DNA of 64,000 nt from Parvivirga hydrogeniphila (lineage in GTDB: Bacteria > Actinomycetota > Coriobacteriia > Anaerosomatales > Anaerosomataceae). Location of the stretch: NCBI RefSeq assembly GCF_023371205.1, contig NZ_JAMCCO010000002.1, positions 62,001 to 126,000 on the forward strand, in the 5' to 3' direction. The notes beneath the pieces are model-generated. The model saw nothing but the letters and a program-made list of their open reading frames with translations, was not told the origin of the DNA and ran no database searches. Below are positions 13,020 to 64,000 of the stretch, in pieces (positions within the stretch are counted from its first letter, which is position 1; each line of letters begins with the position of its first letter). The translations under genes and the position numbers were made by a program.

Positions 13020-13023
13020 CTCA

Positions 13024-16520: not shown

Positions 16521-16535
16521 CGCCACCACACCCCG

Positions 16536-18667: not shown

Positions 18668-18702
18668 CACATTCTACATACGTGATGATTCTACCCCGGT
18701 CG

Positions 18703-19521: not shown

Positions 19522-19569
19522 GAATCCACCGTTCCCTCGCTGCGGACACCATCAGGAGGATACAGCAAG

Positions 19570-19600
19570 GGCAGGGGCCGCGCGATGCGCGACCCCTGCC
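19570..19600 (-). terminator. Hairpin between pilA and pilD
   Basis: A 14-bp stem with one mismatch (GGCAGGGG outer arm, GCGC inner arm) and a 3-base loop, 24 bases past the pilA stop. On the minus strand it is followed by CTTGCTGT, a poor U-tract. It may act as a partial terminator or 3' stabiliser that keeps pilin mRNA above the downstream genes. Confidence 0.6.
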
Positions 19601-19624
19601 GGCCATCGGTCCAACCGACGAGTA

Positions 19625-20014: not shown

Positions 20015-20133
20015 GGATGCTCACCTCCTCTTCCTCGGGGCACTCGCCCCAGTTGCCTACGCTGGTTGTATCGGCATTCTCGCGCGCCACTTGAGGCGCA
20101 ATCCTGAAGATTCCCGAAAAACGAGCACCACTG

Positions 20134-21348: not shown

Positions 21349-21395
21349 CGTGCGCCCCTTCTTCTAGCTGCGACTGCCGCTGCGTTCTGTGCTTC

Positions 21396-22457: not shown

Positions 22458-22469
22458 GTGTCCCCCATC

Positions 22470-24137: not shown

Positions 24138-24217
24138 CTCTGATGACCCCCGTCACGCACGGCAGACCCGACGGTATGCAAGCCGCTCATAATGCTACGA
24201 CGACCCGGCGATGATGG

Positions 24218-24928: not shown

Positions 24929-24929
24929 C

Positions 24930-25457: not shown

Positions 25458-25475
25458 CCGGATTCCGCTCCTCGT

Positions 25476-27332: not shown

Positions 27333-27392
27333 ATCGCTTGCGATCGCCCTTCCTATCTGCGCTGCCTCGGTTGACCGGCGCGGCGCCCCCCG

Positions 27393-28019
27393 CTACCCGA
27401 GAATCTCCGCCACCTGCGCTGCAGCCGTCTTCATATCGTACAGGACAAGCCCGAGCTTGGCTTGCGCGCTCGCCATCACCGTCAGCACCGCACGCGAGCC
27501 GGCGGCCACCAACAGCACGTAGCCGTCTTCGCCTTCGATGAACACCTGCGACAGGTGTCCCCTTCCGAGCTCGGTGGCAGCGCGCTCGCCCAGACCGAGA
27601 ATGGCTGCAGACATAGCGCCGACACGATCCGACTGCATGCCCGCTGGCAGAGCCGCGGCCATCGTGAAGCCGTCCAGGCTCACGAGCGCAGCGGCCTGTA
27701 TGTCCGGATCGCCCTGGATGAGGCCGTCGAGCACGGCGGCAAGGCGCTCCTCGCGCGAGGCAGGCCGACCCACCGCAGCGACAGGCCGCACTGCAGCGGA
27801 CGGCTGCTGCACGGCAGCTGGAGCCGGCGGCGCGGGCGCGGCGGCGGGCTCAGGCGCCGGCTGGGGCGCCTCGACGACGGCGGCCGGTGCAGGCGAGGCC
27901 GGTGCCGCCGCGGCCGGCTGTCGAGGAATCACGATCGGCGGCTTGAGCAGATCGTCGTCCTCGAGCGGTTGCACGTCGGCATCGCTGATGAAGTAGTCGC
28001 CGACTCCTTGGTCGACCAT
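27393..28019 (-). CDS. Roadblock/LC7 domain protein (MglB-like)
   Basis: Residues 1-85 are a short acidic N-terminus followed by a Pro/Ala-rich linker. Residues about 88-205 are a Roadblock/LC7 fold: ERLAAVLDGLIQGDPDIQAA, VSLDGFTMAAALP, then AILGLGERAATELGRGHLSQ and VLLVAAGSRAVLTVMAS. Roadblock proteins pair with and regulate small GTPases. 208 residues. The start is an ATG with GGAGG 8 bases upstream. Together with the GTPase it resembles an MglA/MglB pair, with the DUF4388 protein encoded between them. Confidence 0.85.
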   Translation of the reverse strand: MVDQGVGDYFISDADVQPLEDDDLLKPPIVIPRQPAAAAPASPAPAAVVEAPQPAPEPAAAPAPPAPAAVQQPSAAVRPVAAVGRPASREERLAAVLDGLIQGDPDIQAAALVSLDGFTMAAALPAGMQSDRVGAMSAAILGLGERAATELGRGHLSQVFIEGEDGYVLLVAAGSRAVLTVMASAQAKLGLVLYDMKTAAAQVAEILG

Positions 28020-28154
28020 CCCCTACACCTCCGAGTGCGAGTCGTGCGCGGAAGCCCTAACGAACGGACGAGATGCGCCTATGCTGCGCGAACGTGCTCA
28101 GTTTCTCACGCTTGGCAGACCGATACAACAGCGAGAACGCGCTCCGCCGCGGCT

Positions 28155-45845: not shown

Positions 45846-47255
45846 CTATTCGTCCGGCACGCGCGGAGAGCCAGGCGCAGCTGCATCGCCCTCGGCCGCA
45901 GCGATGCGCTGGAACGCCGAGAGGGCGGCCTCGCCGCGAGCGCGAGCGCCGGCGTCCTCGGCTCCCGCCACGAGGTCCTCGACGACGGTCGGGCACGACA
46001 GCGTCACGTCGTCGTCACCTAACTCGCGCCGGAGCTCGAGGTAGTCTGCCTTCGGAGAGCTGCTGGAGATGAGCATCGACTTGAAGGCTATCGAGAAGTT
46101 CACGTACGCCTCCAGCAGCCGGAACGTGCCCGTGTCTCCCATCGGTCCGACCGGGCGGTCGCCCGGCTCGAGCTCGGCACGCCCGGACACGACGCGAGCG
46201 CGGCCGGCGATCTCGAAGCCGCCACGCTCGTCGGTCCAGCCGAGGTTGTCGGTCTGGACGCCGATGACCGTCGGCAGGTTCGCGAGGTCGTAGTGGCACA
46301 GCAGGCCCATCTCACCAGGCGGCAACGGATCCCCTTTCGCCGGGTCCACGGCAACCACGCGCGTCCACGGCGGGGCCGGCTTGTGACGCTCGCCGCTCAG
46401 ACCCATGACCGTGTTTCGCAGCGTATCGTCGAAGTAGTTCGTCGCGCTTTCTGCCATCCCGAGCGTGTTGATGCACCACGACCGCTCGACGCCGAAGGTC
46501 TCGAAGACCATGTCGTAGAAGTCCTCTCGCGTCACCTCGCCGAAGCGCCCGCGATACCCGCCGCCATCGCACACGCGGCTCCCGGCAGGCAGACAGAACC
46601 GCATCCGCTTGCGCCTGCACGTGTGCATGAAGTACACGAACGCCGACGTCGCGCCGACCATCGTGACCGGCGTCCCGTCCGTCTCGGACTGTCGGAGCAT
46701 GCGGACCGTCCGCTTGACGTCGACCCCGGTGCGGCCGACGAGGAACGCGCTGTCGTCGGTCCCGAACCGCTTGCGCGTCTCGTCCATCCCGATGGCCATC
46801 CCCATCGTCGGCGCAAGGTCGGGCCCGGGCGTGAGCAGGAGCAGCCGCAGCCTGCCGGTCCGTTCCAGATCAGGGAAGAGGTAGCTTCCTGTCATCACGG
46901 CATTCGCCTTCAGGATCAAACCCCTCCCGATCTCGTCCCGGAAGATCTGCCCACGCTGGTTGGGCGACGTCGTGCCGCTGGTGATGTTCGCCATCACGGC
47001 CTCGGCGAGCGGGAACGACGTCACGATGTCGCGCTTGAAGGACTCGGTCGGGTACGCGGGGATCTCCTGCCAGTCTCCGACGGACTTCGGCGTCGCGCCG
47101 AGGGCGTCGCAGAACGCGCGGTATGGCCCGTTGTGCTCGTACTGGTAGGCGAAGACATCCAGCGCAAGCGCTTCGAACGCAGCGGGATCGCCGTCCACTC
47201 CTGCGTCGATCATCGCGTGGACAGCACCCGCAAGACGCTGCCGTTCGTCAGTCAC
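45846..47255 (-). CDS. LuxE-like acyl-protein synthetase family protein
   Basis: 469 residues similar to the LuxE/acyl-protein synthetase family of adenylate-forming enzymes. PAYPTESFKRDIVTSFPLAE leads to the AMP-loop TSGTTSPNQRG (92-102); GTDDSAFLVGRTGVD, a Gly/Tyr segment near VCDGGGYRGR, and NTLGMAESATNYFDD follow. LuxE activates and transfers fatty acyl groups; relatives occur in surface-polymer and natural-product loci. The GTG start overlaps the stop of the upstream small membrane protein by 8 bases. It ends the cytochrome-maturation gene run; its substrate is unknown. Confidence 0.75.
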   Translation of the reverse strand: MTDERQRLAGAVHAMIDAGVDGDPAAFEALALDVFAYQYEHNGPYRAFCDALGATPKSVGDWQEIPAYPTESFKRDIVTSFPLAEAVMANITSGTTSPNQRGQIFRDEIGRGLILKANAVMTGSYLFPDLERTGRLRLLLLTPGPDLAPTMGMAIGMDETRKRFGTDDSAFLVGRTGVDVKRTVRMLRQSETDGTPVTMVGATSAFVYFMHTCRRKRMRFCLPAGSRVCDGGGYRGRFGEVTREDFYDMVFETFGVERSWCINTLGMAESATNYFDDTLRNTVMGLSGERHKPAPPWTRVVAVDPAKGDPLPPGEMGLLCHYDLANLPTVIGVQTDNLGWTDERGGFEIAGRARVVSGRAELEPGDRPVGPMGDTGTFRLLEAYVNFSIAFKSMLISSSSPKADYLELRRELGDDDVTLSCPTVVEDLVAGAEDAGARARGEAALSAFQRIAAAEGDAAAPGSPRVPDE

Positions 47256-49003: not shown

Positions 49004-49870
49004 TCACTGCGGCCGACTGAGCCGCGGCATGCCCGATCCGATGTTCCTGAACAGGTGGTAGCTTGTCGGGACGAGCTGCACCCCCCAGAAGACCATCATG
49101 ACCCCGAACAGGCAGAACAGCGCGAGCCACGCGAGACGGTCGGCGCTCCACTTCAGCGTGACCTTCGCGTGGAGGTAGAAGCCGTAGGCCAGCCAGGTGA
49201 GGAGCGACCACGTCTCTACCGGGTCCCAGCTCCAGTACGAGCCCCACAGTCGGTACGCCCAGATCGAGCCTGAGGCGATCATGACGGCGTTGTTCAAGAA
49301 GCCGAACGCGACGAGCGGGAGCGTGAGCTCCTCGATGCGCTCTGCCGACGGCAGCCACGGCGGGAGCCCGTCCGGCTGGCCGCGGCGCTCCGCGCGCCTC
49401 CGGATGAGGTGCACGGCCGCCAGCCCCGCGACGGTCGAGTAGGCCGCGTAGGTTATCCACGCGAACGTCACGTGCACCACGAGCCAGCCCGACTGGTACG
49501 GCGGCGTCACAGGCCCGGCGGGACCGGCTTGCGTGATGCCGTACCCGCACGTCACGAGCGTCACGGGCAGGATGAGCACGCCCGCCAGCGCCGTGCCACG
49601 GAACCGCAGCGCGACGACGAAGTACGCCAGCACCATCACGAACGCGCCGACGAGCACGTTCTCGTAGTCCTCGATGTACGGGAAGTGGCCTGCGGCGACC
49701 CATCGCGCGACGATGGCGACGCTGTGGGCTGCAAGCCCCGCACCAGTGGCTGCGAGAGCGGCCGTCTGCAGAGCGGGCTTCTTGAACGACAGCGCCGCGA
49801 TGATCGCCACCGCGCCCACCGCGTACAGCGCGATCGCGATCCAGAACGTCGTCGCCTCCAAAGCGTTCAT
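49004..49870 (-). CDS. ccsA: System II cytochrome c heme lyase subunit CcsA (copy 1, canonical)
   Basis: Multi-span membrane protein that exports heme and, with ResB/CcsB, attaches it to CXXCH motifs outside the membrane. 288 residues. The tryptophan-rich WWD domain, WGSYWSWDPVETWSLLTWLA, is complete at 209-228. Four conserved His are visible: H62 (GHFPYIEDYENVL), H133 (VVHVTFAW), H234 and H272 (SYHLFRN). The ATG overlaps the resB stop as ATGA. It forms a pair with the ResB at 49867-51222. Confidence 0.95.
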   Translation of the reverse strand: MNALEATTFWIAIALYAVGAVAIIAALSFKKPALQTAALAATGAGLAAHSVAIVARWVAAGHFPYIEDYENVLVGAFVMVLAYFVVALRFRGTALAGVLILPVTLVTCGYGITQAGPAGPVTPPYQSGWLVVHVTFAWITYAAYSTVAGLAAVHLIRRRAERRGQPDGLPPWLPSAERIEELTLPLVAFGFLNNAVMIASGSIWAYRLWGSYWSWDPVETWSLLTWLAYGFYLHAKVTLKWSADRLAWLALFCLFGVMMVFWGVQLVPTSYHLFRNIGSGMPRLSRPQ

Positions 49871-51222
49871 TCGCGCGAGCCCTCCTCGCTCGACTCACGT
49901 CGCTCCATCTCCTGCGAGCAAGACAAGCATACGACCTCTGCCTCGCCCGCGCGCGTCTGCATCCACGGATAGACCCGCAGGACGGCCTGCAGGGCTCCGT
50001 CCTCGCCTCGCTGGACGACGGCGCGACGCTCGGGCACCGCGAACCGCCACATCGCACCGAGCACGACGAGCCAGAAGCCCGCGTAGGTCACCCATCGGGC
50101 GGGCTCGCCGCGGACGAGGAACCTGCTCCACAGCCCGAGGCCCTCGAAGATCACGGTGGCGCCGCCGACGGAACCCGATGACTCGCCAGGCGCGAGCACG
50201 CCCTCCCAGCGCGCGTCCGCGTGCTCGACGACGATCGCAAGCCGAGGGTCCCGGATCGCCAGCTTCTCTTCGACGGCTTCGTCGCTGGACGAGACCGGGC
50301 GCGGCGTCGCGGACAAGGAGAGCGCGACGTCGCCTGCGTCCGTCTTGACGACGATGTCGTCGCGCCAGCCGTACGGCGTCTCTGACGCCAGCTTGACCGC
50401 CAGGGGGAGCGCTTGCCGTCCGTCGACGCGGACGACGACGCGGGCCACGTACCCGGAGTCCTGCAGCAGCCAGCTCTTCCCTCCAGCGTCCAGCGGGTGG
50501 TTCACGCGCACGTCCTTGCGGACGATGCGACCGTCCGGCTGCACGGCGCGCATCCGCGCCACCGCGGACACGACGGTGCCGCGCTCGTAGGCGACATGCA
50601 TCGAATCGAGGGTGATCCGCGTGCCTCGATACGCAGGGCCCACTCGCGGCACGACGCCCACGGTCTCGTACGCGCTCGGCTCGTCCCGCACCGTCTGCCC
50701 CTCCGCGATGACCGCCTGCCCGCGGAACGCGGTAACAGACGTCGCAACGCCGCCGATGATGACGACGATGAGCCCGGCGTGCATGATCGCGCTTCCCCAG
50801 AACCCGCTACGCCCTTTCACAAGCGTGACGGAGCGCGGTCCTGCACGAAGCACGGTCCAGCCCTCGCCCAAGGCCCTGCTGACGAACGCGGCGAACTCGG
50901 CAGGGACGGCACCTTCGCGCGACGAGGAGCGGCGTCGTGCGCTGACGCGGCGCACCGTGCAGACCGTGAGGTTCACGCCGAGCAATGCCGTCACGACCGC
51001 GATGGGCCACCCGCCGTACACGCGGTCCAGGCCCACGGCGCTGACGAGCTTGGCCACCGCAGGCGCTCGATGCGCGAAGTCCTCGTACGCTGCGCCGAGG
51101 TATGCGCGCTGCGGCACCACGACAGAGACGATGGACAAGGCTCCTAAAGCGGCGATCAGCCATGCAGCCAACCGCACTGAGCCTGCCTGCGACAGGAGGC
51201 GCAAGACGCGAGGCGTCCTCAC
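49867..51222 (-). CDS. resB: System II cytochrome c biogenesis protein ResB (copy 1)
   Basis: 451 residues: membrane spans near 18-38, 72-92 and 140-160, a large extracytoplasmic domain, and a last span near 378-395. SGFWGSAIMHAGLIVVIIGG and the final WVTYAGFWLVVLGAMWRF match ResB/Ccs1. The GTG start overlaps the stop of the small protein upstream. The C-terminal tail carries a CLSC motif (432-435) that standard ResB proteins lack; by usual topology it faces the cytoplasm. Pairs with CcsA copy 1. Confidence 0.92.
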   Translation of the reverse strand: MRTPRVLRLLSQAGSVRLAAWLIAALGALSIVSVVVPQRAYLGAAYEDFAHRAPAVAKLVSAVGLDRVYGGWPIAVVTALLGVNLTVCTVRRVSARRRSSSREGAVPAEFAAFVSRALGEGWTVLRAGPRSVTLVKGRSGFWGSAIMHAGLIVVIIGGVATSVTAFRGQAVIAEGQTVRDEPSAYETVGVVPRVGPAYRGTRITLDSMHVAYERGTVVSAVARMRAVQPDGRIVRKDVRVNHPLDAGGKSWLLQDSGYVARVVVRVDGRQALPLAVKLASETPYGWRDDIVVKTDAGDVALSLSATPRPVSSSDEAVEEKLAIRDPRLAIVVEHADARWEGVLAPGESSGSVGGATVIFEGLGLWSRFLVRGEPARWVTYAGFWLVVLGAMWRFAVPERRAVVQRGEDGALQAVLRVYPWMQTRAGEAEVVCLSCSQEMERRESSEEGSRE

Positions 51223-51683
51223 GGCCGCTCGTCCTCCAGCACGCGCGAGAGGTAGACCTTGAGCGTGCCGCCGCCAGAAAGGAGCGTGTACTCGATGCGC
51301 TGACGCCGCTCGGACGCCGGCCCGCGAACGGCTCCTGTGCGCGTGTCACGCTGCGTCTCGCGCCAGCGCTCGACGACGACCGCAGTCACCGTGGGGTCCT
51401 TCGAGCGGACCTTCTCGACGTGAAGATCGAGCAGCTCCGCGTCGAGCCGGGTCGCTGTGCCTTCGAGGAGGATCATGTAGTTCCTCACCCTGCCGATCTC
51501 GCGCGGCAACGCGACGCCTTGCAGGCGTTCCGCGTCCAGCGAGCGCAACGCCTCTGCAAGCGCGACGTCGTAGGCAGCGACCGCGGCCCGGACGCGCCGC
51601 TCCTGCCAGGCGCGGTACCCGAAAAGGCCGGTGCCTGCGAGAAGCACGAGGAAGACTGCGAGCGCGACAAGCCGCCGCTTCAT
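51219..51683 (-). CDS. Small membrane-anchored protein, unknown function
   Basis: 154 residues: an N-terminal membrane helix or uncleaved signal (RRLVALAVFLVLLAGTGLFG), a helical segment with AYDVALAEALRSLDAERLQG, then a beta-rich C-terminus (VTAVVVERWRETQRD; RRQRIEYTLLSGGGTLKVYL). No cysteines apart from none visible in the mature part and no heme motif. The family is not recognised. It overlaps the propeller/SBP fusion gene by 4 bases and resB by 4, so it belongs to the maturation operon. Confidence 0.75.
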   Translation of the reverse strand: MKRRLVALAVFLVLLAGTGLFGYRAWQERRVRAAVAAYDVALAEALRSLDAERLQGVALPREIGRVRNYMILLEGTATRLDAELLDLHVEKVRSKDPTVTAVVVERWRETQRDTRTGAVRGPASERRQRIEYTLLSGGGTLKVYLSRVLEDERP

Positions 51684-54412
51684 CGGCCCGCTCCTGGAGC
51701 CGACAGCTGCGCCACGTCGCTGAACACCCCTGCAGGGAATGCACGCACGACGAATCCCGTCGCGCCGCCGGACACCGCGACCCGCCTCATCTCGTACCGC
51801 TCCCCGATGGCCAGCACGAGCTCGTCGAACGCGCGGCGCGTGATCTCCCGACCGATGGCGGCCCGCTTCTCGCGGTCGTACTCGGCCTTGGCGGTCGCGT
51901 ACAGCTTCGCAAGCGTCGCGTCGCGCGGCGCTGCGATACCGATCCCGTACGGATTGGCCGGAGACGGCACGTCGCCCGAATCGAAGACCCCACCCCACCC
52001 GGGGTCTGGATACCCCGGGAACACGCCGAGGCCCACCGTGTAGCTACCTGTGCTCAAGGCGCCGCGGCGCCACACGGCCTCGTAGTGACGGAGCGAAGCG
52101 GGATCGTACCGGTCGAGAGCCCCCATCTCGCGCCACCTGAGCTGCATCGCGTCCATCGCTTCGAGCGGGATGTCCGTGTCGTTCCACAGCCGGTGGGTCG
52201 ACAGACCTTCCACCTCGAGGACCTCGCCGAACCGCTTCCACACGCGGCGAGCGAGCTTCTCGTCTGGCGTCGACCGCCACCCGCTCGCCGAGAGCACGCT
52301 CCGCGCTGTCTCTAGGTCGTCGCCCTTCACGGGCCCGCGCGACGGATCGTGCGCCGGCGAGACGACCGGGTGCGCATCGACCGGGACGCTCGTCTCCGAC
52401 GGAGCGTAGACCTGGGAGTGGAGCGCGTCGCGCGGGTACGCTGCACGGATCGCTTGACGGACAGCGAGCTCGGCAGTCGGCTTCCGACGCGGGTTGAGAA
52501 GCGTCCCCCACCAGCGTCCGCTCGCGTGCTCGGCGACCTCGACGCCGCTCTTGCGCAGCTCCACCACGCTCGCGTCGTCCACCCAGTCCCACACGACGGG
52601 GCCCGGCGTCTGCCGATACAGCGCAAGAGCGTCTTGCCCGTGCGCGAACGCGATGCGGACCTTCCCGACCTGCCCCGGCTTCCGAGAGCCGGCGCGGTGC
52701 GCAACGAGGTACCACGCGGTCCCGTCCTCCCAGCGCGCGAGCCGGTACGGCCCGCAGCCGATGGGTGCCGCGAAGACCGGCGGGTTCACCGTGGTCGTCT
52801 CAGGCAGCGCGTGGCTGGGCAACACGTACGGGAAGAACGCCTCGGGGGCGACCCCGACCGGTCGGGAGAGGCGGACCACGACCGACGAGCCTTCGGCCCG
52901 GACCTCCTCGATCGCATCGAAGCCGGGGAAGGGCCGGCCGTGCGGCAGGTACGAGCGGTCGCGAAGGTACTCGTAGGTGGCGACGACGTCGTCGGCGCTG
53001 ACCGCTCGCCCGTCGTGCCAGAGCACTCCGTCCCGGATCTCCCAGCGGATCGTGAGCCCGTCAGCGGAGACGAGCCCGTTTTCCTTGCTCGGCACGCGCT
53101 TCGCGAGATCGGGCACGGGTGTCAGCGACGCATCGTAGGCCACGAGGCCGCTGTAGACGAGCCTGAACAGGTCGCGCTGCGCGTCGTCGATGGCGGCGTA
53201 CGGGTCGCCGCTTGCCGGTTCGACGGGCTCGATGACGGTGAGCTCGGGCTGGAACGGCGCCTCCGTGTCGACCGTCACGCGACCGCCAGGAACCAGCTCC
53301 ACGACCGCAAGCTTCTCGCCCGAGACGCGGCTGGTGACGAGCGTCCCATCACGCCGAGGCCACGCGAGCGGCGCCCACTCCGTGAACAGGTCTTGCCAGG
53401 GCACCTGGATCTTCGTGACCGTCCCGTCTCGGTCGACGATCCACAACACCGCGACCTCGTTGGCCGGATCGCCGAGCGAGGACAGCCCGAGGGCCACGGG
53501 CTTCTCCGGGCGGAGCTCTTCCGCGTACAAGCGGCCCTTCGCATCGGCCGCGAACGGCCGCACGTCTTCGGGCAGCGTGTACGTGGCGATCTTGTCGCCG
53601 GCCTTGGTCCAGGAGGTCACCGTGTACGGCGGCGTGGTGTGCTCGCCCGTGATGGCCCCGTCTGACGCGACCCGGTACAGCAGACCGTCAGCGCCGAAGA
53701 ACGACCCGCTCAAGATGAGCGACAGCGGGTCGGCCGGGGGTTCGAGCGAGCCTGGCATCGCGACGGGCACGAGCGCGTTGTTGAGGTGGACCTCCTTGCT
53801 CTCCGGGTCGATGGCCCACTCTTCGGAAAGCGCCCACACGCCGCCATCGGGATCGAAGGTGATGGCGCGAGCGAGAAAGCCGCGCGGGAGCTGGTAGGTC
53901 CCACGCAGCGATCCGTCCGGCCCATAGCGGAGAACGTGCTCCTGGTCGCCTGAGCCCATGGCGACGTCGACCCAGAGATCGCCCGATGGCGACGGCGTGA
54001 AGAGCGTTGCGCCGAGCGTGGTATCGAACGAAGCGAGCACGCTGCCGTCCCGGCCGAGCAGCCGGACGTGCGGGACGGCCCCCGCTCCCGGCGGATGGTG
54101 GACGAGCCAGAAACCCTCGTCCGCTGCTGGAGCGACGACCTCGAGGTACGAGGACTCCTGGCCTGGCGCCCTCGGCACGAAGGAGCGTTCGTCCTCGTAC
54201 GGGAGCTCGAGGACCGTCGCGGCCGTGTACACGGTGTTGACCTGGCGTATCGGTGCGTTCGTGCTGTCGCGCGGATCTGCGCCCATCGTCCACGGCCGCT
54301 CACGGAGCACGAATGTGAGCATCGGCACCACGAGCGCCGCGATCACCACGCCGAGGACCCAAAGCGCCGTCGACGGCACCTGGAACCTTCCCATACGGAC
54401 CGTGCGCCTCAT
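51680..54412 (-). CDS. Membrane-anchored propeller-like domain fused to family 5 solute-binding protein
   Basis: 910 residues. A membrane helix at about 15-35 (ALWVLGVVIAALVVPMLTFV) is followed by some 330 residues with repeated beta motifs (DPDGGVWAL; DGLLYRVASDG; DAKGRLYAEE; RDGTVTKIQV) that look like a beta-propeller or NHL-type region. From about residue 400 it is an SBP_bac_5 (peptide/nickel/heme-type) domain: AQRDLFRLVYSGLVAYDASL, then the SADGLTIRWEIRDGVLWHDG signature. No permease or ATPase genes are near, so it is probably not a transporter receptor. The start may be this ATG or a GTG up to three codons earlier. Function unknown; context suggests cytochrome handling. Confidence 0.75.
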   Translation of the reverse strand: MRRTVRMGRFQVPSTALWVLGVVIAALVVPMLTFVLRERPWTMGADPRDSTNAPIRQVNTVYTAATVLELPYEDERSFVPRAPGQESSYLEVVAPAADEGFWLVHHPPGAGAVPHVRLLGRDGSVLASFDTTLGATLFTPSPSGDLWVDVAMGSGDQEHVLRYGPDGSLRGTYQLPRGFLARAITFDPDGGVWALSEEWAIDPESKEVHLNNALVPVAMPGSLEPPADPLSLILSGSFFGADGLLYRVASDGAITGEHTTPPYTVTSWTKAGDKIATYTLPEDVRPFAADAKGRLYAEELRPEKPVALGLSSLGDPANEVAVLWIVDRDGTVTKIQVPWQDLFTEWAPLAWPRRDGTLVTSRVSGEKLAVVELVPGGRVTVDTEAPFQPELTVIEPVEPASGDPYAAIDDAQRDLFRLVYSGLVAYDASLTPVPDLAKRVPSKENGLVSADGLTIRWEIRDGVLWHDGRAVSADDVVATYEYLRDRSYLPHGRPFPGFDAIEEVRAEGSSVVVRLSRPVGVAPEAFFPYVLPSHALPETTTVNPPVFAAPIGCGPYRLARWEDGTAWYLVAHRAGSRKPGQVGKVRIAFAHGQDALALYRQTPGPVVWDWVDDASVVELRKSGVEVAEHASGRWWGTLLNPRRKPTAELAVRQAIRAAYPRDALHSQVYAPSETSVPVDAHPVVSPAHDPSRGPVKGDDLETARSVLSASGWRSTPDEKLARRVWKRFGEVLEVEGLSTHRLWNDTDIPLEAMDAMQLRWREMGALDRYDPASLRHYEAVWRRGALSTGSYTVGLGVFPGYPDPGWGGVFDSGDVPSPANPYGIGIAAPRDATLAKLYATAKAEYDREKRAAIGREITRRAFDELVLAIGERYEMRRVAVSGGATGFVVRAFPAGVFSDVAQLSAPGAGR

Positions 54413-54414
54413 GC

Positions 54415-55218
54415 TCACCACGCTCTGATGTCAGGGATATCGAAGTGATGGTACGTGTTGGACATGATGCTCCAGGACCAGAACACCGCGAGCACGAGCG
54501 GCAGCAACGCCAGAACGCACCACGCGATCCTGCGGCCACGCCACCCGAACATCGCGTACGCGTGCGCCGTCAAAGCATAGCCCAGCCACGCGGCGAACGC
54601 CGTCGTGCCGACGATCTCCCAACGGTACCAGTCTGCGAACAGGACGTAGCTGTAGACCGAGCCCACCATCATCATCGCGCTGAACGCAGCAAATCCCAGA
54701 CCCACACCGCGGACGATGAGCGAATCGAGCTCAGCGCTCCGCTCGGCGTTCCGCTCGGCCAGCCGAACGAAGCCAGCTGTGCCCGCAAGCACCAGCATCG
54801 AGAACGCCGTCCACGCGAACAGCACGTGAATGTCGATGAAGAGGCTCCGCTCGGATATGGTGAGCGGATACGGCGTCTTGTCGAACGCCTGCCCGTACGC
54901 GAGGATCGCCACGACCCACCCGAGCATCAATCTGACGAGGAGCGGGTGAGCGCGCTCTTTCATCCGTGCCACGAGAACCGCTGTCGTCAGCGCGACGGCC
55001 CACGACGCAGCGATGGTGTTCTCGAAGGTCCCGAAAACCGGAGGGTGGCCCGTGACCGTCCACCGGGCGATCGCTGATGCGGCCTGCAGCGCCAGGCCAC
55101 ACGCCAGCAGCCTGACAATGGCCTCGCTGCGCTGGGGGCGCACAAGCGCAGCGACGAGGGCCGCGGCGAAGAACCCGCACGCCGCCCAGTAGAGCGCTGT
55201 GTGCACCGTCACCGCCAT
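54415..55218 (-). CDS. CcsA-like heme lyase subunit (copy 2, degenerate WWD motif)
   Basis: 267 residues with about eight membrane spans. It keeps the four CcsA histidines: H58 (TGHPPVFGTFENT), H131 (DIHVLFAW), H219 and H257/H258 (TYHHFD). The WWD domain at 194-214 reads FADWYRWEIVGTTAFAAWLG: the central Trp-Asp-Pro and the Glu-Thr-Trp parts are lost. The ATG has GGAG 6 bases upstream. It overlaps resB copy 2 by 10 bases. It may handle a special heme site or be an accessory heme relay. Confidence 0.85.
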   Translation of the reverse strand: MAVTVHTALYWAACGFFAAALVAALVRPQRSEAIVRLLACGLALQAASAIARWTVTGHPPVFGTFENTIAASWAVALTTAVLVARMKERAHPLLVRLMLGWVVAILAYGQAFDKTPYPLTISERSLFIDIHVLFAWTAFSMLVLAGTAGFVRLAERNAERSAELDSLIVRGVGLGFAAFSAMMMVGSVYSYVLFADWYRWEIVGTTAFAAWLGYALTAHAYAMFGWRGRRIAWCVLALLPLVLAVFWSWSIMSNTYHHFDIPDIRAW

Positions 55219-56525
55219 GAGCGCTCCAGTCGCCGCACGATGCGCTCGGCCACATCCAGGCGCGTCCCGTAGAAGTCGGAGCGCACGGACACGCGCCCAG
55301 ACGCCCCGTCGGCCACGAACAGGGCCTCGGTGCGCGGGAACGCGAGGCGCAACGCCACGCCGACGACGACCAGCACCACTGCAATCGCGACAACGGGCGC
55401 CACCGGGTCGCGCACCACGCGGAAGACGCCGTAGTGCCGAAGCCCGGGGAACTCGAGCGTCAGCCTAGGCACCTCCACGGGCTCGCCGATTCTCACGAGC
55501 TGCTCGTCTGCAAGCACACGCTCCCCCGCCCCGCCCGTGAGCACCCGCGCCACCGACACGACGAGACGCGGGTCGTCGGAGTTGAACGACTGCACGCCTG
55601 GCTTTCCGTTCCTGTCGATGTAGTCTCCGTAAACTTGGACGTACACGCGGTAGCGATCCGCGCCGACAGAAATCTCAATCGTGTCGCGCTGCCCGGACGG
55701 GAAGGCTTTGAGCTTGTACACGCTGCGCACCGGCGCGCTTCCATCGTCTCCTCGCGCAACGACCTCGAGCGCGTACCCGAAGTCCGAGAGGCTGACGCTC
55801 GTGTCAAGACGAGGGAACCAGGGCCGACTCACAGACACGGCGTGCAAGCGACCATTCTCGCGCACCTCGGCCTCAAGCGACGTGAACAAGAGCATGTCTT
55901 CGTAAAACCGCGGTCTGACGCTCTCCACCTGAAACGATAGCGTCGGAGGCGACGCTGAGGACTCGCTGGACCTGTCGATGTAGGCGCTCTCCGCGCCCCC
56001 GAAGGTCTCTCCCTCGGCCAGCACAAGGTTTCCCTGGAAACGTAGATTCGGCCACAGCACGCCTGCGGTCACGCCGCTGAGCAGCACGACAAGGCCGGCG
56101 TGGAACACCACTGTCCCCAGCGGCGAGAAGCGGTTCTTCACCGCCCACACCCAGCCGTCGCCCGCGACGGGACGCCGGAAGCCGACAGCAGCGAAGACGC
56201 GTTGCACCTGCTCTGCTCCCACCGACGGCGCATCACGCAGCGGAACGCCGCCTAGGACGGCAGGACGTTCGCTGTCTGAAGGCGTCCTGCGGACGCGCGC
56301 GAGCGCCGTGCCCGTGTGAACGGCGATGCACGCGACCATGTTCGCAGCGAGCAGCGCGTACAGTACGCGGAAGAACGGCTCGCCGTAGACAATGGCCCGT
56401 ATCTGCGGCTCAGGCAGGCCGTACGCCTGGAACGGCACGATCCACACGAGCAGGAGCACTATCCACACTACGAGCAAGAACGCAGCGAAGCGACGGGATC
56501 CTACGTATCGCATGATGCCTGTCAT
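55209..56525 (-). CDS. ResB-like cytochrome c biogenesis protein (copy 2)
   Basis: 438 residues with spans near the N-terminus (FAAFLLVVWIVLLLVWIVPF; VLYALLAANMVACIAV), a further span (LGTVVFHAGLVVLLSGVTAG), a large extracytoplasmic domain and a final span (APVVAIAVVLVVVGVALRLA). Divergent from copy 1 but with the same plan. The start is placed at ATG 56523-56525 (MTGIMRYVGSRRF); an ATG 10 codons earlier and one 4 codons later are alternatives. First gene after the giant cytochrome, 97 bases away, and overlaps CcsA copy 2. Confidence 0.85.
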   Translation of the reverse strand: MTGIMRYVGSRRFAAFLLVVWIVLLLVWIVPFQAYGLPEPQIRAIVYGEPFFRVLYALLAANMVACIAVHTGTALARVRRTPSDSERPAVLGGVPLRDAPSVGAEQVQRVFAAVGFRRPVAGDGWVWAVKNRFSPLGTVVFHAGLVVLLSGVTAGVLWPNLRFQGNLVLAEGETFGGAESAYIDRSSESSASPPTLSFQVESVRPRFYEDMLLFTSLEAEVRENGRLHAVSVSRPWFPRLDTSVSLSDFGYALEVVARGDDGSAPVRSVYKLKAFPSGQRDTIEISVGADRYRVYVQVYGDYIDRNGKPGVQSFNSDDPRLVVSVARVLTGGAGERVLADEQLVRIGEPVEVPRLTLEFPGLRHYGVFRVVRDPVAPVVAIAVVLVVVGVALRLAFPRTEALFVADGASGRVSVRSDFYGTRLDVAERIVRRLERSWR

Positions 56526-56622
56526 GTCGATTGAAACCTTACCGCAATGCGGCACCGGCGATGGCGCATGACACGCTCCGCCGACCGCTCACGCTGTCGC
56601 GTGCCAGCGCACACGCACGGCA

Positions 56623-59600
56623 TCAGTTCGTGGGTCGAGCGTAGTAGTAGTTGGGCGTGACGGACTTGCCCCAGGTTCCACTATGCTGCGTGCAGCTGCT
56701 GTAACCGTCTGTGTTGTTGAGCGTCGAGCAGCCGTAGGTGCCGCTCGTGTCACCAAGCAGGTGGGCGTCCCACGCTGCGCCGTTGCAGAAGCGATAGCCC
56801 ATCGGGTCGCCGACGGGCGCGCCGTCCTGCACGAGACCGTTCGTGCCGTTGTTGCCGTCGCCTGGCAGCATCGAGGTCCCGTGCAGCGCTCCGTTCGCGA
56901 TGGCGTTGTCGTTCACGCGCCCCCCGTGGCAGTTCTGGCAACCAGTGAGAGCCACCGTCAGCTTGGTCGGATCGATGCAGCTTGAATTGACGTCGCCCAC
57001 GTGCCTTGTGCGTGACAGATAGACTGCGGTCTTGTCGCTGTTGGAACCGCCGGCATCGGCGTAGACATCGACGCGATGGCAGTTGTTGCAGAAGCTCCGC
57101 GCATCGGCCGTGGTGAGGTTCACAACACCACCCGCCGTGGTCGTCTTCACGCCTGTGTTGTACCCGCGCAGGATCCACCGGTAGCCGGATCCGTGCGGGC
57201 CGCTCGCCATGTTCGTCCAAGTGTCGTTGCCGTGGCAGTCGGAGCAGGTCACGCGGCTCGTCGCAAGCCAACCATCCACGAACGTGTTCGACAGCCCCCA
57301 CCCCGTGCTCGTGCCGCCGATGTTGCGCCGCTTGGTGCTGGAATTCCAGGTGCCGTACGTGTTCGCGGGCGGCTGGTTCTTGCCCTGCGCGAACAGCGGG
57401 TGGATCGCGTACTGCTTCGGGCTGAAGTCGAGCCCGACGTCCGTCATCGGCCCGTTCGCGTTCTTGAGCGACATCACCTGCGGCCGCGTCTGCTGCCCCC
57501 ACGCGTAGATGCTGTGGCACTTCAGGCACATCTGCCACTCGTACGCAGCGGTCGTGACCTTGTCGTAGCTCGGCTGCGTCGGCGAGCCGAAGGTCCCGTC
57601 GCCTGCCCAGTTGCCGTTGGTGGCGCCGGTTATGTTCACTCCCCACACTCCCTTGTTCGCCGCGGAGATCGGCACCGCGTTCGCGCCGGTCGCACGGTTG
57701 TTCTGCGTGTTGTCCGTGGGGAAGTAGTAGGTGCCGGGTTGCGCCTCGTGCGGGTTGTGGCAGTCCTCGCACTCGACGTGCCGATTCGCGTTGCTGGTTC
57801 CCCACCATCCTGTGGTCGACGAAGGCGTCACCTGGGTCGGCGCGCTCACCGACTCGTCAGACCGATGGACGCCGCTGTACCCGGCCACGTTGTGCTTGTA
57901 GGTCTCCGCGAATTCGCTCTGGATGCTCCTGGACTGCGCGTCCATCGCCTTCGCACCGTACGCGTCGTTGCCGGCCGTGCCGCCGGTGTGGCACGTGAAG
58001 CAGAGGTTCTCCTCCGAGGAGGTGCTGGTGCCAGCGAGCGCGACCCCGAGCGCCTTCGCGATCCGGTTCTCGGCCGAGTAGTGCGTGCCGAACTTGTAGG
58101 TGCTCGTCTGGTACGACTTGAGCGAGTCCTGCTCGTCGTCGTGGCACTTCACACAGTTCGCTCTGAAGGTGCTCGTGCCGAAGCTCGAGGTCACTTCGTA
58201 GTCATGAGCAGACACGTCATAGGCCGCACCGCTGATGGCGGGCGTCTGGCTGCTCGCGCCCGTGGTCTTCTGGCCGGTCGTGTTCTTCGTGAGCGCACTC
58301 GAGTGGCACGACAGGCAGATGCCGTAGCTCGGCGAACCGCCCGCGATGAAGTCCGTGTTCGTGTTCGAGGCACCGCTCGTGTTGCTGATCGACGTGCGGA
58401 GGTTGGAGCCCTTGTTGGCATTGAAGTAGTTGTGGTCGGTGTGGCAGCTCACGCACGCAAGGGCCGTCGTAGAGTTCGGATACGTGCCGGTGCCAGGGGC
58501 CTGGCCAGGCGTGCCGGAGTCCAACACGTGGTGGTAGTACGTGGTGTCGCTCACCATGCGGTCGTACCGCTCGGTCGAGGTCGAGCCGTGGCAGTTCAGG
58601 CAGTCGATGCCGCCGTTGCTGCCGCCGGGGCCAGGGTTGTGGACGTTGTTGCTGGTCGCGTTCGCGTAGCTGTTGCCGTGGCATCCGTAGCAGGACTGCG
58701 TGTCCGCCTGGTTGTGGCCCGACACGGGCGGCAGCTTGAGACCGCGCTTGTTCGTGCTGTCGTACACCGTGCGGTCGATGCCTTCGATGTTCGCGCCCGC
58801 AGACACCGCGGCGTATCCGGTGCCGTTCCACCCGGCCGTCGTGTCTGCCGTGGTGTGGCAGGAGAAGCAGAACCTCCTCACGCCCGCGTCTGTGCTCATG
58901 TCGATCTCGCCTGCAGCGTCACCGATCATGATCGTCGTGGTGCTGTTGGTCATCGTCCTGACGAGCAGGCCGTCAGTGCTGTTCGCGTTCCCGTGCGGGT
59001 TGTGGCAGTCGTAGCACGGCAGGCCGTCGCCTGCGGTCAGGTTCCCGCCCGGCGTCTGGATCTTGTGGCCGTAGTTGGTATCCGCCGCCTGCGTCTGGTC
59101 GCCGCCGTTCGTCGTCGGGTAGTACTGCTTGATGTTGACGCTCGACGGATCGCCGTCGTGGCAGGTGAAGCAGTTCCCGAAGTTCGCTTTCGTGAAGGTG
59201 CCGCGAAGCTCGTCGTAGGTGTTGGCCGTGCCATGCACGTCGTGGCAGTTCTTGCAGTCGCCGTCCGTGAACGACGAGCCCGGCCACACGACGAGCTGCC
59301 CATCGCCGTCCGAGCGGTGGATACCGTTCGCGCCTGAGTACACGGTCATGCCGGGCCACGTGCCGTCCATCGGATACCCGGTGCCGGTCTCGGGCGTGAA
59401 CGTCGGATACCCCGTCGACGCGGCGTTGTGGCACGCCTGGCACACGGTGTTGTTGTTGCCGGTGATGGCCTGGCCGTTGATCCGGTTGGTCTTGGTGGCC
59501 GGGTCGTAGGCGCCGAGCAGCTTCGGATAGGCCGAGCCGTGGTTGTCGTGGCACTCGGCGCAGCTCTTGGTCTCGGCGGCCGAGATGGAGCCGGAGGCGC

Positions 59601-62600
59601 TCCAGTGGCCGCGCGCGGCGTAGGTGCTCTTGTTGTTGGTGGCGGCATCCGCCTGCGTGACGGTGTACGGGACGTAGGTCGCGCCGGAGATCGTGCGCGA
59701 GGGCAGCGCGCCGTCGTGGCACTTCAGGCAGAAGGCCGACTTCTCCGCCACCGTGCCGTAGGCGGCGAGGTTGTAGGTGTTGTCCGGGTCGCTCACGCGC
59801 GCAGACGCGCTCACCGCGTGCGCGTTGTGGCAGCTCTCGCACTCCACCGAGTCGCCGCCCGCGGCCACCACGGGGTGCTTGCTCGCGAGCGCGAACTGCT
59901 GGTAGACGAGCTCGGAGCCGGCCGTCGGCATGTCCGCCACGCCGTACCAGTCCTTGCCGGCGACGCTCTTCTTCGTGCCGGCCAGGCCGTCGGTCGGCAG
60001 CGAGTGGCAGCGGTAGCAGTGCTCTTCCTGCAGCTGGTCGGTCACGGCCCCGCCGAGCGCGCTCACGATGTGCTGCGCGGTGCTCCAGTGAGGGCCGAAC
60101 TGCTTGCCCGTGCCGGACTGCCAGTCTTTCGTCTGCTCGTCGTTGTGGCACTTCGAGCAGTTCGCGTAGAAGGTCGTCGAGTCGCTGAACGTCGAGGTCG
60201 CCTCGTAGTCGTGGGCAGAAACATCGAAACCGGCGCCGGCGATGATCGGCGTGGCGGTCCGTCCATCGCTCTTGCGGTTGACGGTGTCTTTCGCAAGCGA
60301 CTGGTCGTGGCACGAGACGCACACGCCATACGTGCCGCTCCCGGGGAAGTCGCGGTTCGTGACGGACGACCCGGCGGCCGTGACGGATGTCCGAAGGTTG
60401 CCCGACTTGCTGGCGTTGAAGTAGTTGTGGTCGGAGTGGCAGCTCACGCAGAACACGTCGGTGCGCGTGCTGTTCGTCAGGTCCGGGTAGGCGCCGGTGT
60501 TCGGTGCGAGATCTCCGTCGTAGTACGTCGCGCTCATCGTGCCGCCGAGCACGTGGTGGTACACCGTCGTCCGGTTGGCGCCCGTCTTCGTGCCGGATCC
60601 GTCCTCCATGTACGCCTGGTACGCGTGGCAGCCGTAGCACTCCTGACCGCCTGAGCTCACGCCGCCGCTCGGATTGTGGACGTTGTTGGATGCGGCGGTG
60701 CTGTAGTCCCGCCCGTGGCAGTCGTAGCACGGCTTGGTGGACGTGCTGCTGTGCGGGTCCGGCGAACCGGAGAGGGCCTTGAGCTTCAGCCAGTTGTGCG
60801 TGTACCCGCTCGGAGCGGTCTGGCCCGCCAAGATGGTGCCGTCTCGACGAAGCCCTTCGACGAGATCGGTCCCGACGGCCACGTACGACGAGGTGCCCGG
60901 GTCCCACACCTGGCCGTCCGAGCTCGAATGGCAGAGGAAGCAGAAGCGGCGCAGGTTCGTGCCATCGCTGGCGTTCGGGTCGTTGTGCGTGATCTCGCCC
61001 GGCGCATCGCCGTAGTCGCGGACCTGCAGCATGAAGTCCGCCGCGCTCGACCCGTGCGGGTTGTGGCAGTCGTAGCACGGTAGCGCGTCATTCACCGTGA
61101 GCGTGCCGCCCGAGGTCGCGATGCGGTGACCGCTGCCGCCGCCAGCGCCGCCGACGCTGATCGGGTAGTAGCCCTTGATGTTGCGTGCCGCAGGACCGTC
61201 CGCGTCGTGGCACTCGAAGCACAGCACGAAGTCCGCGGAACCGTACGTCGCCCGAAGCTCGTCGTACGTGTTGGCCGTGCCATGCACGTCGTGGCAGACC
61301 TTGCAGTCGCCCGCCGCCGGCATGTTAGGAAGCGACGAGCTGCCGCCGCCGTTGGCGGTGGTGTGCGCGCTCGCGTTGTAGGTCGTGAACCCAGGCCAGG
61401 TGCCGTCCGCGATGTAGCCGCTGGCATCACGCGTGCCGGCGGGATACCCCGTCGACGCGGCGTTGTGGCACGCCTGGCACACGGTGTTGTTGTTGCCGGT
61501 GATGGCCTGGCCGTTGATCCGGTTGGTCTTGGTGGCCGGGTCGTAGGCGCCGAGCAGCTTCGGATAGGCCGAGCCGTGGTTGTCGTGGCACTCGGCGCAG
61601 CTCTTGGTCTCGGCGGCCGAGATGGAGCCGGAGGCGCTCCAGTGGCCGCGCGCGGCGTAGGTGCTCTTGTTGTTGGTGGCGGCATCCGCCTGCGTGACGG
61701 TGTACGGGACGTAGGTCGCGCCGGAGATCGTGCGCGAGGGCAGCGCGCCGTCGTGGCACTTCAGGCAGAAGGCCGACTTCTCCGCCACCGTGCCGTAGGC
61801 GGCGAGGTTGTAGGTGTTGTCCGGGTCGCTCACGCGCGCAGACGCGCTCACCGCGTGCGCGTTGTGGCAGCTCTCGCACTCCACCGAGTCGCCGCCCGCG
61901 GCCACCACGGGGTGCTTGCTCGCGAGCGCGAACTGCTGGTAGACGAGCTCGGAGCCGGCCGTCGGCATGTCCGCCACGCCGTACCAGTCCTTGCCGGCGA
62001 CGCTCTTCTTCGTGCCGGCCAGGCCGTCGGTCGGCAGCGAGTGGCAGCGGTAGCAGTGCTCTTCCTGCAGCTGGTCGGTCACGGCCCCGCCGAGCGCGCT
62101 CACGATGTGCTGCGCGGTGCTCCAGTGAGGGCCGAAACGGTAGGTGGACCGCTGCGCAGTCTTGTACGCGGACGCGTCCTCGTCGTTGTGGCACTTCGAG
62201 CAGTTCGCGTAGAAGGTCGTCGAGTCGCCGAAAGTCGAGGTGGCCGCGTAGCTGTGGGCCGACGTACCGAACTGCCCCGCGCCCGCCCCTTCCACGATCT
62301 TCGGCGTCGCGGTGCGCCCGTCGTTCTTGCGGTTCGTGGTGTCCTTTGCGAGGCTCGCTGCGTGGCACTTCGTGCAGACGCCGGTGTTCGTGGACGTCGA
62401 GTAGTCGGTGTTCGTCCCCGCCGGGTTCGCAGTCGCAAGGTCGGGCCGGAGATTCGAGGACGCCGACGGATTGAACTTGTCGTGGTCGACGTGGCAGCTC
62501 AGGCAGTACACGTCGGTCGTCGATGACGGGTACGCGCCTGGCGCGAAGGCCTTGTCGCCATCGTACGTCGCGCTGCCGAGCACGTGATGGTACACCGTCG

Positions 62601-64000
62601 TCCGGTTGGCGCCCGTCTTCGTGCCGGAGCCGTCTTCCATGTAGCCCTGGTAGGTGGCGTGGCAGCCGTAGCAGTCCGCACCGCCGTTGCTGACACCGCC
62701 CGTCGGGTTGTGCACGTTGTTCGTCGACGACGCTGTCGGGCCGCCGTGGCAGCCGTAGCAGTCCTGGGTGTCGCCTTGCTTGTGGCCGTCCATCGAGATC
62801 GACGGCAGCTTGAGACGGCTGCCATCGCTCCCGTCGCGGCGCAGCCCCTCGACCGTCGTCGTGCCGACAGCGACCCACGCCGAGCCGCTCCAGCCGTTCG
62901 TGGTGTCCTGCGGCGTGTGGCACGCGAAGCAGAACTTCCGGCGACCATCAACCGTGGATACGTTGATCTCTCCTGCGCCGTCACCGATGTCGCGCACCTG
63001 CAATGCGTACGCGGACGCCGAACCGTGAGGGTTGTGGCAGTCGTAGCAGGGGACCGCCTGGCCCTGCGCGAGCTTCGCGCCAGCGACCGAAGAAACCACG
63101 CGGTGCCCAGACCGCAGGCTCGCGTTCGTACCGCCTGCAGACACCGGGTACAGCCCCTTGATGTCGGTGCCTTTCGTGCCGTCGTGGCAGGTGAAGCAGA
63201 GCTCGAACTGGTCGTCGTTCGGGCTCGACGGGTCGAAGGTCGCCACGAGCTCGTCGTAGGTGTTCGCAGTACCGTGCACGTCGTGGCAATTCTTGCAGTC
63301 GCCGGGGGCATACCCTGAAGATGGCCAGACGGCCTCGGCCGCGGTGTGCGGGCTTCCCGTGTGCGTCACGGGCGTGTAGATGACGTCGTAGGTCCCGAAG
63401 CCAGGCCAGGTGCCGGTGTCGAGGTAGCCGTTCGTTGCACGTTGCGCTTCGCTGGCAGGGAAGTCGGTCGACATCGTCGTGTGGCACGCACGGCACACCG
63501 TATTGTCGTTGGCCGTGATGCTGGTCGAGCCGATCCGGTTCTGACCCGTCGCGGCGTCGTACTCGCCCAAGAGCTTCGGGGCCGAAGAGCCGTGGTTGTC
63601 GTGGCACGTCCCGCACGGGACGATCTCGCCAGCGGAGATCGCGCCCCACGCGCTCCAGTGACCGCGTGCTGCGTACGCGCCCTTATCGTCGGCCGGATCG
63701 ACCATCGTGACCGACGCCGGCACGTAGGTGGTGTCGTTGCTCTGGTAGGTCACACCGCTGCCGTCGTGGCAGTTGAAGCAGAATGCGGCCTTCTGGATCG
63801 TCGTCGAGTACGGCGCTGGCCGCAGCGTGTTCTCCGGATCGGTGACGCGCGAACCCTCTTGCGACCGCACGACGTGCGGGTTGTGGCAGCTCTCGCACAC
63901 GACCGTGCCTGCGCCGGTCCCCAGCGGATGGCTCGATCCCGGCGGCTGGCCGACCGTCTCGAACTGGTCGTACACGCGTTCGGCGATCGCCGCCATCGTG
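56623..64000 (-). CDS. Giant multiheme c-type cytochrome with 14-heme repeats (5' end outside window)
   Basis: About 2,459 residues are in the window and the frame is open at the edge; the first visible residues match the middle of the repeat unit, so the protein is longer. I count 47 CXXCH motifs, about one per 52 residues: 14 in each of three repeats and 5 in a shorter C-terminal unit. Repeat hallmarks are CESCHNxH, CHDVHGTANTYDEL, CYDCHNPHGS, a YHHVLG segment and CSKCHND. Extra His (for example ARGHWSA, NNVHNP) can serve as distal ligands. There is no membrane span or sorting signal at the C-terminus. Almost certainly exported and an extracellular or wall-spanning electron conduit; hemes are attached by the System II genes downstream. 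Confidence 0.95.
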   Translation of the reverse strand, partial: TMAAIAERVYDQFETVGQPPGSSHPLGTGAGTVVCESCHNPHVVRSQEGSRVTDPENTLRPAPYSTTIQKAAFCFNCHDGSGVTYQSNDTTYVPASVTMVDPADDKGAYAARGHWSAWGAISAGEIVPCGTCHDNHGSSAPKLLGEYDAATGQNRIGSTSITANDNTVCRACHTTMSTDFPASEAQRATNGYLDTGTWPGFGTYDVIYTPVTHTGSPHTAAEAVWPSSGYAPGDCKNCHDVHGTANTYDELVATFDPSSPNDDQFELCFTCHDGTKGTDIKGLYPVSAGGTNASLRSGHRVVSSVAGAKLAQGQAVPCYDCHNPHGSASAYALQVRDIGDGAGEINVSTVDGRRKFCFACHTPQDTTNGWSGSAWVAVGTTTVEGLRRDGSDGSRLKLPSISMDGHKQGDTQDCYGCHGGPTASSTNNVHNPTGGVSNGGADCYGCHATYQGYMEDGSGTKTGANRTTVYHHVLGSATYDGDKAFAPGAYPSSTTDVYCLSCHVDHDKFNPSASSNLRPDLATANPAGTNTDYSTSTNTGVCTKCHAASLAKDTTNRKNDGRTATPKIVEGAGAGQFGTSAHSYAATSTFGDSTTFYANCSKCHNDEDASAYKTAQRSTYRFGPHWSTAQHIVSALGGAVTDQLQEEHCYRCHSLPTDGLAGTKKSVAGKDWYGVADMPTAGSELVYQQFALASKHPVVAAGGDSVECESCHNAHAVSASARVSDPDNTYNLAAYGTVAEKSAFCLKCHDGALPSRTISGATYVPYTVTQADAATNNKSTYAARGHWSASGSISAAETKSCAECHDNHGSAYPKLLGAYDPATKTNRINGQAITGNNNTVCQACHNAASTGYPAGTRDASGYIADGTWPGFTTYNASAHTTANGGGSSSLPNMPAAGDCKVCHDVHGTANTYDELRATYGSADFVLCFECHDADGPAARNIKGYYPISVGGAGGGSGHRIATSGGTLTVNDALPCYDCHNPHGSSAADFMLQVRDYGDAPGEITHNDPNASDGTNLRRFCFLCHSSSDGQVWDPGTSSYVAVGTDLVEGLRRDGTILAGQTAPSGYTHNWLKLKALSGSPDPHSSTSTKPCYDCHGRDYSTAASNNVHNPSGGVSSGGQECYGCHAYQAYMEDGSGTKTGANRTTVYHHVLGGTMSATYYDGDLAPNTGAYPDLTNSTRTDVFCVSCHSDHNYFNASKSGNLRTSVTAAGSSVTNRDFPGSGTYGVCVSCHDQSLAKDTVNRKSDGRTATPIIAGAGFDVSAHDYEATSTFSDSTTFYANCSKCHNDEQTKDWQSGTGKQFGPHWSTAQHIVSALGGAVTDQLQEEHCYRCHSLPTDGLAGTKKSVAGKDWYGVADMPTAGSELVYQQFALASKHPVVAAGGDSVECESCHNAHAVSASARVSDPDNTYNLAAYGTVAEKSAFCLKCHDGALPSRTISGATYVPYTVTQADAATNNKSTYAARGHWSASGSISAAETKSCAECHDNHGSAYPKLLGAYDPATKTNRINGQAITGNNNTVCQACHNAASTGYPTFTPETGTGYPMDGTWPGMTVYSGANGIHRSDGDGQLVVWPGSSFTDGDCKNCHDVHGTANTYDELRGTFTKANFGNCFTCHDGDPSSVNIKQYYPTTNGGDQTQAADTNYGHKIQTPGGNLTAGDGLPCYDCHNPHGNANSTDGLLVRTMTNSTTTIMIGDAAGEIDMSTDAGVRRFCFSCHTTADTTAGWNGTGYAAVSAGANIEGIDRTVYDSTNKRGLKLPPVSGHNQADTQSCYGCHGNSYANATSNNVHNPGPGGSNGGIDCLNCHGSTSTERYDRMVSDTTYYHHVLDSGTPGQAPGTGTYPNSTTALACVSCHTDHNYFNANKGSNLRTSISNTSGASNTNTDFIAGGSPSYGICLSCHSSALTKNTTGQKTTGASSQTPAISGAAYDVSAHDYEVTSSFGTSTFRANCVKCHDDEQDSLKSYQTSTYKFGTHYSAENRIAKALGVALAGTSTSSEENLCFTCHTGGTAGNDAYGAKAMDAQSRSIQSEFAETYKHNVAGYSGVHRSDESVSAPTQVTPSSTTGWWGTSNANRHVECEDCHNPHEAQPGTYYFPTDNTQNNRATGANAVPISAANKGVWGVNITGATNGNWAGDGTFGSPTQPSYDKVTTAAYEWQMCLKCHSIYAWGQQTRPQVMSLKNANGPMTDVGLDFSPKQYAIHPLFAQGKNQPPANTYGTWNSSTKRRNIGGTSTGWGLSNTFVDGWLATSRVTCSDCHGNDTWTNMASGPHGSGYRWILRGYNTGVKTTTAGGVVNLTTADARSFCNNCHRVDVYADAGGSNSDKTAVYLSRTRHVGDVNSSCIDPTKLTVALTGCQNCHGGRVNDNAIANGALHGTSMLPGDGNNGTNGLVQDGAPVGDPMGYRFCNGAAWDAHLLGDTSGTYGCSTLNNTDGYSSCTQHSGTWGKSVTPNYYYARPTN
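57772..59841 (-). repeat. Cytochrome 14-heme unit 3
   Basis: Bounded by the first-heme CESCH/CEDCH codons of successive units, this unit is 2,070 bases (690 residues). It contains 13 CXXCH after the boundary plus the first heme of the next unit. Its second half diverges most from units 1 and 2 (for example CLNCHGSTSTERYD instead of CYGCHAxYQAY). Confidence 0.85.
59405..60099 (-). repeat. 695-base perfect direct repeat, copy A
   Basis: Identical base for base to 61442-62136 by direct reading. It encodes about 231 residues with hemes 28-32 (from FGPHWSTAQHIV to NAASTGYP). The flanking bases differ immediately at both ends. Confidence 0.93.
59842..61878 (-). repeat. Cytochrome 14-heme unit 2
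   Basis: 2,037 bases (679 residues) between first-heme motifs, with 14 CXXCH per period. It has the same order of signature segments as unit 1, including the near-identical stretch YMEDGSGTKTGANRTTVYHH. Confidence 0.88.
61442..62136 (-). repeat. 695-base perfect direct repeat, copy B
   Basis: Second copy of the repeat at 59405-60099, offset by 2,037 bases. It encodes hemes 14-18. Identity includes all synonymous positions, implying recent duplication or gene conversion. Confidence 0.93.
61879..63897 (-). repeat. Cytochrome 14-heme unit 1
   Basis: 2,019 bases (673 residues) between the first-heme motif at 63883-63897 and that of unit 2. It contains the same 14-heme order but with unit-specific spacer sequences, so it is older than the copy A/B duplication. 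At least part of another unit probably lies beyond base 64000. Confidence 0.85.

Follow-up and report, generated by a model that had tools for sequence, protein, structure and literature searches.

Little is known of how electrons cross a bacterial wall in the absence of an outer-membrane porin, or of how long cytochromes evolve, and a single gene at the edge of the DNA studied here raises both questions. The window (64,000 nucleotides, C2:62001-126000) comes from the genome of Parvivirga hydrogeniphila Es71-Z0120T, order Anaerosomatales (G000; 1,840,996 bp in nine contigs), an obligately Fe(III)-reducing thermophile whose wall is of the Gram-positive type (PMC9686372). An earlier note, made from the letters of the window, had described an open frame with 47 CXXCH motifs that runs off the window edge, with heme periods of 673, 679, and 690 residues and a five-heme end. 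This was borne out: the minus-strand frame at 56623..64000 has 2,458 codons without a stop and 47 CXXCH motifs, and the three periods and the end match the translation exactly. In the upstream DNA, the frame goes on unbroken past the window edge to an ATG at C2:132710 (window 70710). With its stop at C2:118623, the whole gene (G000:C2:118623-132710, or window 56623..70710, of which 56623..64000 lies in the window) encodes 4,695 amino acids and 61 CXXCH motifs; the part beyond the window adds a fourth 14-heme module (649 residues) preceded by a long N-terminal part that is free of hemes and carries a secretion signal. The composition of the gene would yield 0.1 CXXCH motifs by chance. The autocorrelation of the inter-heme spacing is best at lag 14 (r = 0.87), with lag 28 next (0.84); in 20,000 shuffles, the lag-14 value was never reached.

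From N to C terminus, the protein is laid out as a secretion signal, a stalk of Ig-like and FN3 domains, four 14-heme modules, and a five-heme end. Its mature form has a calculated mass of 482 kDa, or near 520 kDa once 61 hemes are counted. Residues 1 to 37 resemble a signal peptide, with an N-terminal hydrophobic signal and an ASA-D site, and the stalk, heme-free and about 1,570 amino acids long, extends to approximately residue 1602, matching the Pfam domains Big_5 and Big_7 and carrying FN3 at its end. All on the minus strand, module 1 ("first" type, 649 amino acids) reaches into the window with its C-terminal edge (63958..64000, the rest extending to 65904) and is followed by module 2 (61939..63957, 673 amino acids), module 3 (59902..61938, 679 amino acids), module 4 (57832..59901, 690 amino acids, terminal type), and the C-terminal end cap (56623..57831, 402 amino acids), which has five hemes and, near the C terminus, a conserved non-heme cysteine pair and a histidine. 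Pairwise identity among the four modules is 39 to 63%. On the modules, the paired-CXXCH and cytochrome c7 models of Pfam match, and modules 2 to 4, not module 1, also match PF22113 (MtrC/MtrF domain II/IV) at 72.6 to 78.6 bits with a cut-off of 30, heme-motif profiles being prone to cross-match. Pfam returned no S-layer domain: its matches are limited to Ig-like domains on the N-terminal side and to cytochrome models in the rest of the chain. We also found no sortase motif, wall-binding domain, or wall anchor in the protein. Nor is there a C-terminal membrane helix, the Kyte-Doolittle mean over 19 residues never exceeding 1.44 past residue 60. A PDB sequence search with the whole protein and two profiles returned no close solved homologue, only weak matches to short cytochrome stretches, and the AlphaFold models of module 3 with part of module 4 (pLDDT 33) and of module 4 with the end cap (pLDDT 30) were unusable.

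What a single module contains is clearer from conservation. Aligning 32 modules drawn from eight families within the order shows 14 CXXCH histidines and exactly 14 further histidines per module, the latter conserved in at least 97% of the modules, so that each module could ligate all of its hemes on both sides. In this respect the 14-heme unit is self-contained, as would be expected for 14 bis-His hemes with ligands of its own, in a heme-ligand pairing that is predicted from the alignment.

The same unit recurs in relatives. A module profile found relatives in 40 of 61 near genomes, and all 41 hits that it gave among 298 genomes of the class fall within Anaerosomatales. When the complete genes of relatives were read from their contigs, 16 had 19 hemes (one module plus the end) and two had 33, next to the 61 of the host's gene and the 75 of two others, in UBA2184 and Anaerosomatales bacterium C14-13. 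Homologues with other unit numbers, for which the earlier note had proposed a search, thus exist, with one, two, three, four, and five units represented. A rule of 14n+5 describes those genes whose modules are intact; as an exact rule for the whole family it was rejected, given members with 17, 18, 42, 44, or 48 hemes. Among single-module genes, six have 17 or 18 hemes, so that single hemes can be lost; one gene has 48 hemes in three modules behind an altered head, and the lower bounds for two incomplete genes are 44 and 45. A few long relatives keep the end cap, and some of them also the head, around a different, heme-dense middle (L098 2899-11202, L100 7320-15359, and L079 2808-10763, with 44, 42, and 48 hemes, respectively), as if the middle part were exchangeable. 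Two giants, those of UBA2184 and C14-13, have some of their N-terminal Ig-like region in a frame that differs from the rest (L033 1237-2103; L034 2757-5636), perhaps owing to a frameshift in the assembly.

How length changed can be read from a maximum-likelihood tree of 35 modules, which is unrooted. A branch with 100/100 support separates all added modules from the modules that stand alone and those that come first in a longer protein (G036, whose head is altered, excepted), and the last modules of the host, G009, G052, and G046 cluster together (100/99). The split between first and added modules indicates that length changed by whole units while both ends were kept, so that one old duplication would have given rise to two module types, with later changes in length made through the added type between a constant head and a constant end; as the tree is unrooted, loss of units in the short forms is possible. 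Together with the one to five units seen in relatives, this split strongly supports the earlier proposal that the protein is modular and that heme number evolves by adding units.

Copying also continues. Two segments of 695 nucleotides, at 61442..62136 across the border of modules 2 and 3 and at 59405..60099 across that of modules 3 and 4 (both on the minus strand), are identical without a mismatch at a spacing of 2,037 nucleotides, and G036 has a 1,407-nucleotide repeat with 11 mismatches at a spacing of 1,989 nucleotides. Identical or nearly identical DNA at one-unit spacing shows recent copying in these two genomes, and the identity of 695 nucleotides while the rest of the modules diverged suggests gene conversion between module borders in the 61-heme gene. 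Short reads cannot place such identical segments uniquely, which speaks for an alternative in which mis-joined reads created the repeated units. We consider such an artefact very improbable, since the four modules differ overall as much as noted above, independent assemblies of relatives show the same architecture with two to five units in one frame, and modules 1 and 4 cluster with the matching units of other species.

The surroundings of the gene bear on where the long form came from. Directly downstream lies a gene for a ResB-like cytochrome c maturation protein (55209..56555), homologues of which adjoin other giant genes, followed in the same cassette by a CcsA/CcsB-like cytochrome c assembly protein (54415..55218) and by a 913-amino-acid protein (51680..54421), all on the minus strand. 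The 913-amino-acid protein is hydrophobic at its N terminus, and its C-terminal half contains a solute-binding family 5 domain. Its homologues adjoin the giants of UBA2184 and C14-13; that it helps to supply heme or peptides is no more than a guess. ResB and CcsA are the proteins that attach heme in the System II route of cytochrome maturation, and such a pair beside a 61-heme protein therefore makes sense. A second ResB/CcsA pair on the same strand (49004..51222, made up of 49867-51222 and 49004-49870) is of the type seen beside many of the 19-heme genes, which also have ResB- and CcsA-like neighbors. The cassette common to the giants of the host, UBA2184, and C14-13 consists of a TPR protein, the giant, the ResB-like and CcsA-like proteins, and the solute-binding family 5 protein; TPR proteins are also encoded beside multiheme cytochromes in related Gram-positive clusters (PMC10376724). 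At the same locus, among conserved neighbors, the congeners EMTCatB1 and G002 have one-unit, 19-heme genes where the host has its 61-heme gene, which means that the genus can do without great length. Growth of the 61-heme gene in place, from such a 19-heme gene, was considered and is weakened by two observations: in a tree of end caps, the giants of different families form a clade of their own (100/100), with the host's cap apart from those of its congeners, and UBA2184 has a separate 19-heme gene in addition to its giant. These observations make replacement more likely, the giant cassette having probably been inherited or transferred as a unit and having taken the place of a short gene in the host. 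Near the cytochrome cluster lies a gene for a LuxE-like acyl-protein synthetase (45846-47255), and elsewhere in the window is a locus resembling type IV pilus or type II secretion systems (11757-29837), with PilM, T2SSF, T2SSE ATPases, a prepilin peptidase, and a 129-amino-acid protein with an N-methylation motif.

As for function, an extracellular electron conduit best explains the secretion signal, the complete ligand complement, the maturation genes, and the physiology of the host together, and we infer that this role is likely. The protein is probably a secreted, surface-located multiheme c-type cytochrome that moves electrons from the cell envelope outward to Fe(III) minerals. Against this count the N-terminal position of the heme-free stalk, together with the negative search for a wall anchor or C-terminal membrane helix, and the short genes of the two congeners. 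A pre-formed wire able to span a thick wall would fit the histidine ligands, the secretion signal, and Fe(III) respiration. Our more specific reading, to which we give a probability of about 0.35, is tentative: a covalent single-molecule wire, its length set in quantized steps of 14 hemes and approximately 2 kb between a kept head and a five-heme end and its heme attachment dedicated, with which monoderms would cross their wall to reach minerals. The hemes would then form a continuous chain that runs from end to end and conducts over its full length, and each added unit would lengthen the path covered by one molecule; with a rise like that of OmcZ (58 Å per 8-heme subunit), 61 hemes could cover about 45 nm. 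The same sequence facts, including one to five units among relatives with unchanged ends, also fit an electron store, in which many hemes would buffer electrons like a capacitor without contact with minerals and added units would bring capacity instead of reach; charge storage has been proposed for dense multiheme cytochromes (PMC7399161). A store has no need of a defined head and end cap, both of which are kept in full members, and an Ig-like stalk with a secretion signal suggests that the protein reaches or attaches beyond the cell, for which reasons we regard storage as rather unlikely.

Two further readings seem less probable still, and about equally so. The isolate forms pili-like appendages only with ferrihydrite (PMC9686372), and a secreted, extremely heme-rich protein might build them by polymerizing end to end in the manner of OmcS, OmcE, or OmcZ. 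The appendages may consist of the 61-heme protein, or they may be ordinary type IV pili, which the pilus locus in the window could make; moreover, the chains of OmcS, OmcE, and OmcZ are absent from the PDB matches up to E = 1 (whole protein and two profiles), and with exactly 14 distal histidines per module, a ligand from a neighboring subunit is not needed, unlike in OmcS and OmcE. The protein could instead be a terminal Fe(III) reductase or a mineral adhesin, its stalk binding the mineral and its hemes serving as redundant contacts without end-to-end conduction. Big_5, Big_7, and FN3 are indeed common in adhesive surface proteins, and the match of part of modules 2 to 4 to the MtrC/MtrF model could point the same way, but module hemes that can all be bis-His argue against an open-site catalytic heme inside the modules, and the heme spacing is strictly periodic. 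Our literature search found no expression data for Parvivirga, and the description of the isolate lists 17 multiheme cytochromes while, in the accessible part of its main text, being silent on the size of the 61-heme protein (PMC9686372).

Set beside known systems, the wire proposed here has partial counterparts. Giant is a fitting word for a 61-heme protein, yet it is no record: the S-layer cytochromes MHC-A/B/C of ANME archaea have 20 to 86 heme motifs per polypeptide, and the highest published number that we found is the 86 of an ANME-2c protein (Chadwick et al. 2022, PMC9012536). They resemble the host's protein in being single polypeptides with large heme-free extracellular domains, and they have been proposed as a conduit through an envelope that lacks an outer membrane (PMC9012536). 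Unlike it, they are archaeal and have S-layer domains, membrane helices at the C terminus, or pectin-lyase domains; we found none of these in the host's protein, in whose family heme number changes in steps of 14 and the five-heme end is kept. OmcS, OmcE, and OmcZ of Geobacter (PMC9473688) are likewise multiheme cytochromes of iron reducers and are extracellular and bis-His ligated, features predicted here for the 61-heme protein, but they have few hemes per subunit (8 in OmcZ) and form non-covalent polymers, whereas the host's protein has 61 in one covalent chain. Heme number also differs among close relatives in the large multiheme cytochromes of Burkholderiales and Anaerolineales (Arbour et al. 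2020, PMC7399161), where hemes are gained or lost in pairs or multiples; the accessible part of that study describes no fixed large unit, in contrast to the 14-heme unit of approximately 2 kb, present one to five times, seen here. OcwA of Thermincola and OmhA/SmhB of Carboxydothermus ferrireducens (PMC7829351) serve extracellular electron transfer in monoderm thermophiles, the role suggested for the 61-heme protein; they have approximately 6 to 12 hemes per protein, without a large repeated module.

Giant cytochromes as such are therefore already known, and what appears to be new is a series built from a fixed 14-heme unit between constant ends: our literature search, with subscription papers lying mostly outside it, found no published family in which such a unit is present one to five times. 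As a natural length series of one to five units with constant ends, the family makes the relation of heme number to reach and conductance directly testable and could be used to ask how long a protein electron conduit must be. One long form occurs in a cultured thermophilic iron reducer, and the end-capped repeat offers a design for protein wires. A side observation was a 42-heme cytochrome of 1,067 to 1,108 amino acids (about 25 residues per heme) in records of Zixibacteria, GN15, the FCB group, Eisenbacteria, and one other bacterium, all with one heme number (L056 5772-8975, L057 1721-4924, L058 8033-11299, L059 196-3411, L063 5779-8985, L065 1985-5284, and L067 14464-17790).
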